Assembly (NCBI GenBank): GCA_007120055.1
Contig: SKOL01000112.1
Coordinates: 1 to 8,009, forward strand
DNA length: 8,009 bases
Reading direction: 5' to 3'
From: Anaerobacillus sp.
GTDB taxonomy: Bacteria; Bacillota; Bacilli; Bacillales_H; Anaerobacillaceae
Shown here: positions 1,567-5,897 of the stretch, one piece after another
How positions within the stretch are numbered: position 1 is the first letter of the stretch
How the letters are laid out: each line of letters begins with the position of its first letter
Notes under the pieces: model-generated
Database searches by the model: none
The model's input: only the letters and a program-made list of their open reading frames with translations
Told to the model about the DNA's origin: nothing
Translations under genes and position numbers: made by a program

Positions 1567-3348
1567 TTATATTCTATATTTTTTCACAAATGAATTCAGC
1601 TGATTTGTTATGGCCATTAATTCTTGGGTTTTTTGAGTTAAATCGTCTACTTGTTTTTGTTGACTTTCTATTGTTCTTGTTACGTCCTCAACATTCATTA
1701 CAGCATCTTCGGAGGTCACCGCTGTTTCATGAATGGCCGTTTGAATCATTTGACTTTTCACTGCCATATCATTTATCGATCCTGAATTTATCTTTACTTT
1801 CTCTGTCATGTCATTAATGTTTTCGTAAATTTCTTTAAAATATTCACCTGCATCATTAATTGATTTTACACTTTCCTTCGCCTCCATTGTTCCTATCTCC
1901 AGCGTTTCTGTAACACTTTTCGTTTCACTATTAATATTTGAGACAATACTGGAAATTTGTTTAACCGATTTCTCTACTTCATCGGAAAGCTTCCGAATTT
2001 CATCTGCTACTACAGCAAAACCACGACCGTATTGGCCAGCTCTTGCAGCTTCAATCGTTGCATTTAAGGCCAACAAGTTAGTTTGTTCTGCAATCTCCTT
2101 TATCACACGTATAAAACGTGCAATATCATCCGTTCTTTCATGGAGCATCCTAATCTTATCATTAGACTTAATAACAGTTTCACTTAACATACTAATTTGA
2201 TTTCGAGAACTAGCCATTTTCTCATTTCCTCTAGACGTAAGCTCCTGAATATACGACGCAGATTCATTCATCATTTGACTACCGTCGTTAATCATATCTA
2301 AATGTCCTGTGAACTCTTTTACAGAGTCGGAAACACTCGTAAATGTACTTGATTGCTCCTCCATACCTGCAATTAAGTTTTGCATATTTGCAAATACGTT
2401 GGAACTATCCTCTCTAATTGTTTCAGAAAAATTGGATAAAAACTCTGTCTTCTCACCCACTGTTGCAGAAGCTTCTGAAACTTGTCTCATCGTCTCCGAT
2501 AATCTATTTTTCATTTCATTTAAAGTACTAGATATAATAGCCAACTCATCTTTTCCTATATCCTCTATATCATCAATTTGCAACTTACCTGCTGTTAATT
2601 CCTTACTAAATTCAATAACTCGATTTAGCCTTCTATTGGTTGCAATATGAATGATTAATAGCATAATAACAGCAATAACCAAGGACACTATAAATAAAAT
2701 AATTAACGTGTTAGAAGACGACTCTAAACTTTCTTGAGTAGCAGAAACTCTTAATTGACGGTCATTGTTTACATAAAGAAGCATCTGCTCTAATGCAAAG
2801 TTTGTTCTATTTTTTATACTCATAGCATCAAAGATGGTACTTCTAAAATACCTAAACTGATTGTGCGCTTCCTCCTGTTGTCCTAAAAGATCTCGATTCA
2901 AGCCATGAAAAATATTATTAAGCTCTGCATTATTGTCATTAATAATATCGTATAAGTTTTTCATTTCATCCGTATCTAAATACGGCTTGATATCTTCCAT
3001 CATAGATTCGAAAGCGCTTTCGTTTTCAACAAATAAAAGATCTAATTCTTCCGTAGGCTCACTGAGTGATTGCATTAAAATACTATATCTTTGCTCAAAT
3101 AAATAATTCATCTGTGACAACATGATAGAACGGTCCACACTACGCTCTTGTGCTTCCAATTCATCTTGAACATTCCCCAGTGTAAAATAAACAAACATAG
3201 AAGAGAAGAAAAATAACATGATAACAATCATAAAAACAAACCCATACTTCCATGTTAGTTTTATATTATTTAAACTGGTTCCCCCCTTCCACTTACTATT
3301 CCTACTCGAATCTTTAAGCTTTTTTTCTCTTTTAAAATAGTTTCTCAT
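1567..3348 (-). CDS. Methyl-accepting chemotaxis protein, 593 aa, transmembrane
   Basis: This is a membrane chemoreceptor that would pass an extracellular signal to the CheA/CheW kinase complex. A basic cytoplasmic N-terminus (1-33) is followed by membrane span 1 (about 36-57), an extracellular helical sensor domain (about 58-213, no recognisable ligand motif, possibly of the four-helix-bundle type), span 2 (about 214-235), a HAMP linker (about 236-288) and a long signalling coiled coil. The hairpin tip at 418-437 is the family hallmark, '[20 protein letters not shown]', followed by '[17 protein letters not shown]'. There is no C-terminal CheR/CheB-tethering pentapeptide. The start is supported by AAAGGAG (3355-3361) 6 bases before the ATG. 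A TATAAT lies on the minus strand at 3383-3388 without a good -35. It appears to be a single-gene unit ended by the hairpin at 1501-1542. The family is certain; the ligand is unknown. Confidence 0.96.
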
Positions 3349-4264: not shown

Positions 4265-4301
4265 AAAAAAGTTTAAAATATTTTTGAACCTTATAAAACT
4301 T
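4265..4301 (-). terminator. Weak AT-rich terminator candidate after the redoxin gene
   Basis: On the minus strand AAGTTT (overlapping the stop codon) can pair with AAACTT (4269-4274) and is followed by TTTT. The stem is short and AT-rich with a large interior, so termination here is only possible, not convincing. Confidence 0.3.
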
Positions 4302-5041
4302 TAGTTTGTCCCTGGGATGCGGCAGCCTTCAGGTCCACAATCGTCAGCCTCTGCTTGCTTTTCTTTTTTAAGTTGTTGTTGTTGCCAATCAATATCAATC
4401 GTTGGCGAAAACTTTTCAGGATAACGAATGTACCAGCGCTGCTTACGGATGAGAAAATTATCTGGATTATACCGAAGTGCTTCATCTAATTGTTTTAAAA
4501 CCTCTTCTTTTTTGCCTTGTTTTAAGTATTCTAACCCTAAAGTGAATTTCGTTTGTGACAACTCATCTTCAAGTGCCGATTTCTGTTCTGGATTGTAATA
4601 AACATCATCAAGCTGAACCGTCTCCACTTTTTCAGCTACTAAATCTTCGATCGCTTTTAGGTGATCTTCATTTGTTACTTGAAATCCTTGCTTGATCATC
4701 CTTATGACTCCTTCTTCATCGATAAAAATTCCATTAGGAACGATCGTAAACCCAAAATAATTAGCAATTTCATTCCTGTATCAACAACAGTTGGAAATGA
4801 AAAGTTTTCTACATAAGGTTTGACAACTTCTGGCCCTTGAAGGTCGACTGAAACGGAAAGAATTTGTAATGAAATCCTTATGTTTCGTTAAAAATTGCTC
4901 CCAGCCTGGAAGCTGCTCACGACAACGTCACCAAGATGCCCACATGAAAATGAGTGTTTTCTTCCCGAGTAATTGATCTGTACTAAACGAACTTCCATCG
5001 ATGCTCGTTAAATGAATATTAGGTAGCTTTTTTAACAACAT
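4301..5041 (-). CDS. Thioredoxin/redoxin-like protein with predicted selenocysteine (in-frame TGA) and two apparent frame changes
   Basis: This is a predicted cytosolic thiol/selenol oxidoreductase of 246 residues when read through. It starts 'MLLKKLPNIHLTSIDG' and continues 'TLIFMWASW', then TGA at 4930-4928 (codon 38), then 'RCREQLPGWEQF'. The TGA replaces the first active-site cysteine, giving Sec-Arg-Cys (U-x-C) instead of the usual C-x-x-C. A hairpin suited to a SECIS follows. The frame then moves at an A-run near 4863-4865 ('ILSVSVDLQGPEVVKPYVE') and moves back near 4773-4774 ('NEIANYFGFTIVPNGIF', containing the cis-Pro V-P motif of thioredoxin folds). The C-terminal part (from about 150) has a TPR-like helix pair ('LGLEYLKQGKKEEVLKQL') and ends with C-G-P-E-G-C. 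There is no signal peptide. GGAAGGA lies about 9 bases before the ATG. The gene is 26 bases behind the AhpD-like gene and surely co-transcribed. A pseudogene is possible if the frame changes are real. Confidence 0.75.
4897..4930 (-). promoter_or_regulatory. SECIS-like hairpin after the TGA of the redoxin gene
   Basis: After UGA (4930-4928) and 14 bases, GCUUCC (4913-4908) pairs with GGGAGC (4902-4897), six pairs including one U-G. The apical loop AGGCU starts 20 bases from the UGA. Known bacterial SECIS elements sit just downstream of UGA inside the coding region and have a G-containing apical loop about 16-37 bases away. The Escherichia coli fdhF loop, AGGUCU, is very similar. SelB binding is inferred. 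Confidence 0.65.
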
Positions 5042-5067
5042 AGCAAAACATCCTTCCCGTTGAGGAA

Positions 5068-5595
5068 TCATTCCTTTTCTAACTCTATACCTAGTCCTTC
5101 AGCCATTCGGTTCACAAAATTAAAATATGAAGTTATTTGGCATGCATCTAAAATTTCACGATCTGTGCAGCCGTGTTCTTTTAAAAGATTGACATCTGCT
5201 TCTTTGATACTTGTCGGCTTTTCCGTAAGCTTAACCGCATAGTCAAGGATTGCCATTGTTTTCTCGTCGATGTTAGCTTCTTTATAATTATTTTTAAGTG
5301 TTGCGACTAACACTTCGTCTTTCGTCAATAAATGGAGCGCCGCCCCATGATGTTCCATTCAGTAATGACACTCATTGACTGCGGAGACAGTTGTCGCAAT
5401 TATCTCGCGCTGCGCTCTACTAAGTGGAGATTTTTTAAACATAATTGTTTTGTAGTAGGCTAAGTGTGCTTCCATCGATTCAGGGAATAGACTATGTACT
5501 TTTAAAATATTGGCAACTTTATTCCCCATTGCTTCGTATAACTCTTTTAATTTCCCTTCTGCTTCATGTTCATGAATTAATTGAATATGACTCAT
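5068..5595 (-). CDS. AhpD/carboxymuconolactone-decarboxylase-like protein with predicted selenocysteine (in-frame TGA)
   Basis: This is a predicted cytosolic alkylhydroperoxidase-like selenoprotein of 175 residues. The frame runs from ATG 5595 to 'SAVNECHY', meets TGA at 5361-5359 (codon 79), and continues unbroken as 'MEHHGAALHLLTKDE' to the true stop at 5070-5068. In AhpD the active site is Glu, 12 residues to Cys, C-x-x-C, then His four residues after the second Cys. Here Glu64, Cys76, position 79 and His83 fit exactly, so TGA stands at the second catalytic cysteine (C-x-x-U). The C-terminal part ('DYAVKLTEKPTSIKEADV', 'ITSYFNFVNRMAEGLG') is typical of the peroxidase-related branch of the family, and about 175 residues is its normal length. 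AAAGGAGGT stands 5-6 bases before the start. Read with TGA as stop, the gene would be reported as two ORFs of 78 and 96 residues. First gene of the operon. Confidence 0.88.
5332..5361 (-). promoter_or_regulatory. SECIS-like hairpin after the TGA of the AhpD-like gene
   Basis: After UGA (5361-5359) and 10 bases, AUGGGGC (5348-5342) pairs with GCUCCAU (5338-5332), seven pairs including one G-U. The loop GGC starts 17 bases from the UGA. An alternative fold pairs UGAAUGGA, starting at the UGA itself, with UCCAUUUA over eight pairs. The first fold matches the size and loop position of bacterial SECIS elements. Function is inferred. Confidence 0.6.
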
Positions 5596-5716
5596 TTGTT
5601 ACCTCCTTTAAGGTTTGTTATTTTTATTTTACCAAAAATCGTTTCTTCTTCGAAAACATTTCGTCCTTACTTGATTTTAGCGCTGTTATATTTATAGGAT
5701 GACATCATTTTTTCGT
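5596..5716 (-). promoter_or_regulatory. Leader of the redox operon: strong ribosome binding site, weak promoter candidate
   Basis: On the minus strand AAAGGAGGT lies 5-6 bases before the ATG, close to the perfect anti-16S sequence. About 30 bases before the ATG, TTGGTAAAAT offers an extended -10 (TGG plus TAAAAT) with no clear -35. No known peroxide-regulator (PerR-like) operator is evident to me. Confidence 0.35.
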
Positions 5717-5747
5717 AAAAAAAAGATACCCTCCTAAAGAAGGTACC
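5717..5747 (-). terminator. Rho-independent terminator of the first YjcZ-like gene
   Basis: On the minus strand GGTACCTTC (5747-5739) pairs with GAGGGTATC (5733-5725) over nine pairs with G-U wobbles and a 5-base loop, followed directly by eight Ts. It sits 15 bases after the stop of the micro-protein gene and separates that gene from the downstream redox operon. Confidence 0.9.
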
Positions 5748-5762
5748 TCATAAATCCTACTA

Positions 5763-5852
5763 TTAGTAGCCGACGTAAGCCGCACCAATAATAACTAACA
5801 AGATAAACAATACAAGAATTAACGCGAATCCTGCTCCTCCTGCGTGAGCCAT
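5763..5852 (-). CDS. YjcZ-family micro-protein, 29 aa
   Basis: This tiny protein has the sequence pattern M-A-H-A-G-G-A-G-F-A, then a 14-residue all-hydrophobic stretch (L-I-L-V-L-F-I-L-L-V-I-I-G), ending A-A-Y-V-G-Y. It matches the YjcZ family of Bacillus micro-proteins: a Gly-rich head, one short membrane span and a Y-V-G-Y tail. Such proteins are found in sporulation and spore-coat gene sets, but their biochemical role is not known. AAAGGAG (5861-5867) lies 8 bases before the ATG and a strong terminator follows, so it forms its own short transcript. A paralogue lies at 7887-7988, beyond the dcuB gene. Confidence 0.9.
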   Translation of the reverse strand: MAHAGGAGFALILVLFILLVIIGAAYVGY

Positions 5853-5882
5853 TTTTAACACTCCTTTTAAATTTTGTGGATT

Positions 5883-5897
5883 AGTGGGTTACCCACT
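5883..5897. promoter_or_regulatory. Palindrome upstream of the YjcZ-like gene, possible operator
   Basis: AGTGGGT and ACCCACT form a perfect 7-base inverted repeat around a single T, 31 bases before the ATG of the micro-protein gene. It could be a regulator site or a short hairpin in the leader. I do not recognise a specific regulator. Confidence 0.35.

Follow-up and report, generated by a model that had tools for sequence, protein, structure and literature searches.

Adjacent selenoprotein genes for an AhpD-like protein and a U-x-C redoxin in Anaerobacillus sp., with relatives among Bacillaceae

The window analysed here (the whole 8,009-nucleotide stretch of Anaerobacillus sp. contig SKOL01000112.1) carries on its minus strand two redox genes, each with an in-frame TGA. 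The AhpD-like (TIGR01926) selenoprotein gene at 5068..5595 encodes 175 amino acids with the motif CHYU and selenocysteine as residue 79; in the ORF reading, its frame (5595-5068) holds a single internal TGA (5361-5359), corresponding to the second Cys of CxYC, and ends at a stop TGA (5070-5068). The redoxin selenoprotein gene at 4301..5041, which includes a TPR-like part, has the motif WASW-U-RC, with the TGA codon for Sec38 at 4928..4930 (a position read in the window and in 29 further loci), and a C-terminal CGPEGC; its frame is broken in the window copy. The first Met given by the ORF tool, at 5071, was rejected as the redoxin start because the redoxins of two related loci (L138 and L139) begin at a Met equivalent to 5041. 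This conserved Met lies 26 bases past the AhpD stop at 5068, which upholds the adjacency of two same-strand genes across a 26-base gap as originally described from the sequence alone. Within the gap, 5' of the redoxin start, a putative ribosome-binding-site-like GGGAAGG (5052..5058, minus strand) was recognized by eye.

Elsewhere in the window, the methyl-accepting, DcuB-like and 174-aa frames are open. Downstream of the methyl-accepting gene (1567-3348) lies a partial minus-strand gene (2-688) for a PhnD-like substrate-binding protein scoring 111.9 bits with TIGR01098, just under the cut-off of 112.05. Also on the minus strand (5763-5852) we noticed by eye an ORF for a 29-aa glycine-rich membrane peptide, presumably resembling YjcZ-type sporulation proteins. 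The promoter/terminator scan of the window placed a terminator-like site at 5749-5723 (minus strand), upstream of the AhpD-like gene, and listed none 3' of the redoxin gene; scans for Rfam families and for tRNAs gave no matches in the window.

By its score (147.9 bits, curated cut-off 81.8), the AhpD-like protein is a member of NCBIfam TIGR01926, and its six PDB matches (e.g. 2pfx, 3c1l, 6k40) are all peroxidase-related proteins or AhpD. Its AlphaFold2 model is all-helical (pLDDT 95.4). We compared 88 loci, comprising the best 80 of 425 encoding stretches from the genome collection, seven additional loci and the window. At residue 79, 29 of them have a TGA codon and 59 have Cys, with no other residue at this position. 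Cys143 and Cys152 are present in 18 and 22 of the 29 Sec loci, respectively, and in none of the 59 Cys-type loci, a restriction that may reflect descent, not function.

Cys forms of the redoxin are represented by two out of ten long homologues, P0126 (WASWCRC) and P0136 (WASWCGC); the remaining eight have Trp at the Sec position, which probably results from a UGA read by another code. The placement of UGA at a catalytic Cys was thus borne out for both families. On the other hand, the redoxin motif is U-x-C, not UxxC, and is formed by Sec38 and Cys40. The C-terminal tail contributes two more conserved positions, with Cys in 30 of 31 rows at alignment column 246 and in 31 of 31 at column 251; the single exception at column 246 is L139, an adjacent pair, which has no first tail Cys. 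Three intact redoxins, those of L138 and L139 included, pass the Pfam cut-offs for both AhpC-TSA and Redoxin. Their scores with Pfam TPR_2 (18.1-23.5 bits, and 24.9 for the window C-terminal part) are under the gathering cut-off of 27, and for this reason we call this part TPR-like rather than TPR. Likewise, 79.2 bits for the broken window copy and 104-110.8 bits for three other redoxins fall short of the NF041054 (WAxxUGC_long) cut-off of 300, and 59.1-64.8 bits in three redoxin copies fall short of the ResA (NF002854) cut-off of 170. The predicted structure (pLDDT 86.3) consists of one part with mixed strands and helices and another that is helical, and the C-terminal tail is modelled at low confidence (56 and 45 for its last two blocks). 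One genome (G011) has two Sec-redoxin copies (L140, L143). In another, selB-positive genome (G060), locus L167 (~4900-5790) retains a 115-aa redoxin remnant without the Sec domain, and the frames upstream of it, read by eye, resemble transposase pieces.

The window redoxin frame is broken, a point missed in the sequence-only reading. A three-frame reading against L138 and L139, whose redoxins are unbroken except for the Sec codon, showed that the conserved protein follows the main frame as far as about 4871 and is back in it from about 4775, about 100 bases further on (~4775..4871, minus strand; limits approximate, by eye). Within this shifted stretch, a second TGA, which had been overlooked, interrupts the nominal frame. 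The window gene is 3 bases shorter than those of L138 and L139, which fits small losses at both places. The damage may be either an assembly error or a recent inactivation, both being possible because the best match of the redoxin C-terminal part in the protein search, besides the window's own, is 82% identical. The frame break concerns the window copy alone.

A candidate SECIS-like hairpin follows the Sec codon in both genes, at 5332..5348 (minus strand; 7 pairs, GGC loop) in the AhpD-like gene and at 4898..4912 (minus strand) in the redoxin gene, the latter stem being also terminator-like in the terminator scan. Folding energy does not single out either window hairpin (z-scores of -0.74 and -0.59 against shuffles) and was dropped as evidence because these scores are weak; what does single out the putative structures is conservation and covariation. 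Hence, the proposed hairpin after each UGA (5348-5332 and 4912-4898) survived as a conserved and covarying element, without distinction in energy. Covariation in the AhpD-like gene was evaluated in alignment A2 (columns 14-20 with 24-30, 26 sequences) against 500 shuffles, which, here as for the redoxin, leave the relatedness of the sequences in place. Of all cells, 97.8% are paired. Two pairs show double changes: 6 sequences have C-G in place of U-A and 2 have A-U in place of C-G, giving 8 doubly changed cells in which pairing is kept. Neither this number of cells nor the covariation score was reached in any of the 500 shuffles; the number of doubly changed pairs was reached by 65/500 and that of pair types by 425/500. 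Controls with slid partners scored no more than 0.031 vs the actual 0.208. All 7 pairs form in 23 of the 29 Sec-AhpD loci (6 pairs in four, 3 pairs in two), whereas at the same place in the 59 Cys-AhpD loci all 7 pairs form in none (median 3/7). The codons CAT GGG GCG GCG CTC CAT are identical in 19/19 Bacillaceae AhpD loci, and the codons following them vary.

For the redoxin (29 distinct sequences, 500 shuffles), 6 cells are doubly changed and paired (C-G to U-A in 4; G-C to U-G in 2, the window and L138). Again, 0/500 shuffles reached the score or the doubly changed cells, and 31/500 reached the numbers of pairs and of types; the sixth pair is broken in 11 rows. Slid controls scored at most 0.101 vs the actual 0.146. 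A partner slid by one column gave 10 doubly changed cells vs 6, yet with 33% of cells paired vs 94% and a lower score. Judging from the shuffle, slid-control and Cys-locus comparisons, the case for the putative AhpD hairpin is the stronger of the two.

We searched 299 genomes from the order of genome G010, with redoxin and AhpD matches counted at E <= 1e-25. Of these, 27 carry the redoxin (in one case as a fragment), 14 carry Sec-AhpD and 137 carry selB. All complete copies of both proteins are the Sec form: exactly one TGA is present in 27 of 28 redoxin copies, the 28th being the fragment, and all 14 AhpD copies have TGA at the residue-79 position, which sustains the view that the occurrence of two such genes is more than chance. 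The co-occurrence with selB proposed as a check was complete, with selB in all 27 redoxin and all 14 AhpD genomes over a background of 137/299 (hypergeometric p of 1.5e-10 and 1.2e-5, respectively, values that overstate independence because the species are related). Profile searches placed selB over its cut-off in 15/15 Sec-AhpD genomes submitted, and selA and selD in 14/14 AhpD genomes. tRNA-Sec was over the cut-off in the same 14/14 and also in 5/14 control genomes, making this model less specific. This evidence for the selenium machinery (selA, selB, selD, tRNA-Sec) comes from the genomes of relatives. Overall, both UGAs are almost certainly selenocysteine codons, in agreement with the original proposal: the in-frame UGA is conserved, changes in the hairpins are compensatory, the AhpD hairpin is lost in Cys homologues and selB is present in all carriers.

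The two genes also tend to occur together. Of the 137 selB genomes, 10 have both, 17 the redoxin only, 4 AhpD only and 106 neither (Fisher p 1.1e-5); when G001-G015, first found via AhpD, are taken out, the respective counts are 6, 17, 1 and 106 (p 1e-4). A redoxin orthologue is present in 7 of the 15 genomes first found via Sec-AhpD, all copies with one TGA. The suggestion of a functional pair is upheld in part: co-occurrence in selB genomes is strong (10/14, p ~1e-5), but 17 of 27 redoxin genomes are without Sec-AhpD; conversely, 4 of 14 AhpD genomes have no redoxin. As to conservation of the arrangement itself, the genes are adjacent in two of the ten genomes with both (match ends 28 bases apart in G042 and 54 bases in G115). 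In the others they are apart: nearby on one strand in G010 (2.7 kb) and G011 (7.0 kb), distant in G178 (36 kb), G165 and G268 (>1 Mb), and on different contigs of draft assemblies in G001, G007 and G276. The AhpDs of both adjacent-pair relatives are 84% identical to the window's, adjacency (seen or suggested) is limited to AhpDs 81-86% identical to it, and no further adjacent pair was found among 101 relatives of G042. Contigs of the same sizes (53,137, 54,286 and 20,072 bases) recur in the AhpD and redoxin protein lists (P0015/P0248, P0014/P0255 and P0017/P0151), which suggests three more linked cases. The pair is thus side by side only in a narrow group, so that a working partnership is no more than plausible.

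Other selenium genes accompany the redoxin as well. Among 30 fetched full-redoxin stretches (window excluded), 8 hold another sought selenium gene, compared to 0.4 to 1.1 expected by a rough chance estimate that assumes the number of selenium genes per genome and their independence and counts one partial match (L165); AhpD, SelA, SelB, SelD or PrdB-like genes were not found in the other 22. AhpD is near the redoxin in L010, L138 and L139. In L149, selB, selA and the redoxin gene follow each other on one strand, with 36 bases separating the last two. A selD gene is near the redoxin on the opposite strand in L153, and a second, Sec-type selD is on the redoxin's strand in L139, with a divergent LysR gene in between. 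This selD (L139 ~4837-5890; G115:C1:3632932-3633849) lies downstream of the AhpD-redoxin pair at a distance of ~1.2 kb, and the LysR regulator scores 218.7 bits with NF040786 (cut-off 250). PrdB/selenoprotein-B-like genes with UGA in a UxxC motif lie on the redoxin's strand in L140 (4525-5274, the next gene) and L151 (7052-7858, one gene between); another, in L139 (14121-14908), is 5.7 kb from AhpD. The partial PrdB-like match in L165 is at the edge of the stretch, its Sec state out of view. The PrdB-like proteins reach 147-187 bits with TIGR04483, where the cut-off is 300, and so are relatives of that family, not members; those of L139, L140 and L151 are probably further unannotated selenoproteins of Bacillaceae.

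The surroundings of Sec-AhpD offer a separate observation. Of 18 Bacillaceae stretches, four (L005, L006, L007, L157) have an ABC transporter after it; the binding protein of this transporter, tested for L005, matches NF008633/PRK11622. Three of these four stretches also have a TVP38-like membrane protein, a name resting on a weak UptA-profile match. The combination of AhpD, a PRK11622-type transporter and a TVP38-like protein may parallel E. coli ynjA-ynjBCD with ydjX/ydjZ. A MerA-like flavoprotein is encoded near AhpD in L010 and L157.

Our preferred reading, to which we assign a probability of roughly 0.68, is that the window, whose nearest relatives point to Bacillaceae, contains two bona fide selenoprotein genes forming a two-gene unit in one lineage, and that the redoxin is a selenium-linked oxidoreductase serving several Sec-dependent clients, AhpD included. 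Both genes would be read by UGA recoding, with a hairpin just 3' of each UGA. In the modelled all-helical AhpD-like protein, Cys76 and Sec79 would form a CxxU redox centre, and this putative enzyme would most likely serve to reduce peroxides or to hand on electrons. The redoxin, probably cytoplasmic, would combine a ResA/TlpA-like domain (U-x-C), a helical TPR-like part and the C-terminal CGPxGC tail, which may resolve or relay a selenenylsulphide; its most likely role is that of a selenium-linked thiol-disulphide oxidoreductase for several Sec-dependent proteins, with AhpD as one client. That the two proteins share a peroxide/thiol pathway we consider fairly likely, and direct electron transfer between them is a tentative proposal. 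Reduction of AhpD is unlikely to be the sole role of the redoxin because the latter occurs in twice as many genomes and has other selenium-gene neighbours.

Several other explanations were weighed. Were the UGAs ordinary stops, both genes would be split genes or pseudogenes, a view that the further frame damage in the window redoxin might seem to encourage, as might the second ORF annotated after the AhpD TGA (P0082, P0105). Such an ORF is called because an ATG often comes after the TGA; among the 19 Bacillaceae loci, 16 have ATG as this codon, though not all do. The conserved UGA position, the hairpins and the link to selB leave this explanation with a negligible chance, and we rejected it. 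More serious, if still unlikely, is the possibility that both are selenoproteins without direct partnership, each working alone and brought together by shared regulation or selenium supply, which overlaps partly with our own reading. It would account for the six of ten genomes with both genes in which the two are separated or found on different contigs, and for the redoxin's additional neighbours (selA/selB, selD, PrdB-like genes), but not as readily for the strong co-occurrence in selB genomes or for the near-linkage outside the adjacent group (G010 and G011, 2.7 and 7 kb, same strand).

The redoxin could also act in selenium metabolism, e.g. as a reductant or carrier of selenium for SelD/SelA, instead of being a partner in peroxide defence. 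The selB-selA-redoxin arrangement of L149 (36 bases between selA and redoxin) and the nearby selD in L153 and L139 would fit such a role; however, a sel gene is present in only 3 of 30 redoxin stretches (on the other strand in L153), and the redoxin is not a core selenium factor because 110 of 137 selB genomes have no match to it. We regard this assignment as quite improbable. Going beyond the selenium-linked oxidoreductase that we favor, one may speculate, with low confidence, about an unannotated selenium redox system in many Bacillaceae, in which the U-x-C redoxin, cytoplasmic and with its CGPxGC tail, would be the shared reductant of Sec-AhpD, PrdB-like and other proteins, with a peroxide-detoxifying selenol-to-selenol relay including AhpD Cys143/152.

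Both families are known selenoprotein types: PMC13188914 lists the AhpD-like CxxU protein of TIGR01926 as well as TlpA-like selenoproteins containing UGC, and the UxC redoxin is a variant below the NF041054 cut-off. As far as our literature searches reach, the URC form of the redoxin, its distribution across Bacillaceae and the selenium genes around it are new. No publication on the selenoproteins of this group came up in the open-access literature, outside which most subscription papers fall. The public entries examined for both genes start after the UGA and are named, for example, "peroxidase", "thioredoxin family protein" or "tetratricopeptide repeat protein"; both genes look overlooked in many Bacillus relatives. 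With selB in nearly half of the order's sampled genomes (137/299), recognition of the two genes would set these gene models right and give access to a Sec-based thiol/peroxide system that can be tested in relatives of Bacillus amenable to culture.

A comparison with known systems places the two proteins as follows. With M. tuberculosis AhpD, as described in PMC3141380, the AhpD-like protein shares the spacing of four of five proton-relay residues (Glu118/Cys130/Cys133/His137, equivalent to Glu64/Cys76/Sec79/His83), differing in Sec at the second active-site position, in place of Cys133, and in the fifth residue, His132, which is Tyr78 here (Tyr in 88/88 loci). Its family, by score, and its CxxU motif are those of the known AhpD-like selenoprotein TIGR01926/COG2128 in the tables of PMC13188914 and PMC9312934, the difference being Cys143/Cys152 of the Sec loci, which follow the clade. 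The redoxin has the redoxin domain and U-x-C centre of NF041054 (ResA-like WAxxUGC motif-containing) and of the UGC-containing TlpA/Prx-like families in PMC13188914 and PMC2398784. It matches the redoxin part of the NF041054 profile, and the window C-terminal part matches the profile's later part; unlike that family, most redoxin copies here have URC instead of UGC, and approximately the first 80 profile positions are missing from the redoxin. ResA/TlpA oxidoreductases with solved structures (4nmu, 1st9 and others) have a thioredoxin-like domain with similar active-site surroundings, whereas the redoxin described here has UxC for CxxC, an extra TPR-like part, the CGPxGC tail and, by eye, no N-terminal signal or anchor. 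Finally, a neighbouring Prx-like/AhpD-like selenoprotein gene pair was reported in PMC2398784 and mentioned again in section 9 of PMC13188914. It likewise consists of neighbouring genes for one selenoprotein of redoxin type and one of AhpD type; there, however, Prx-like 1 is listed with UxxC and AhpD-like 2 as pfam02627, as opposed to the UxC redoxin and COG2128/TIGR01926-type AhpD of the present pair, which has its relatives among Bacillaceae.
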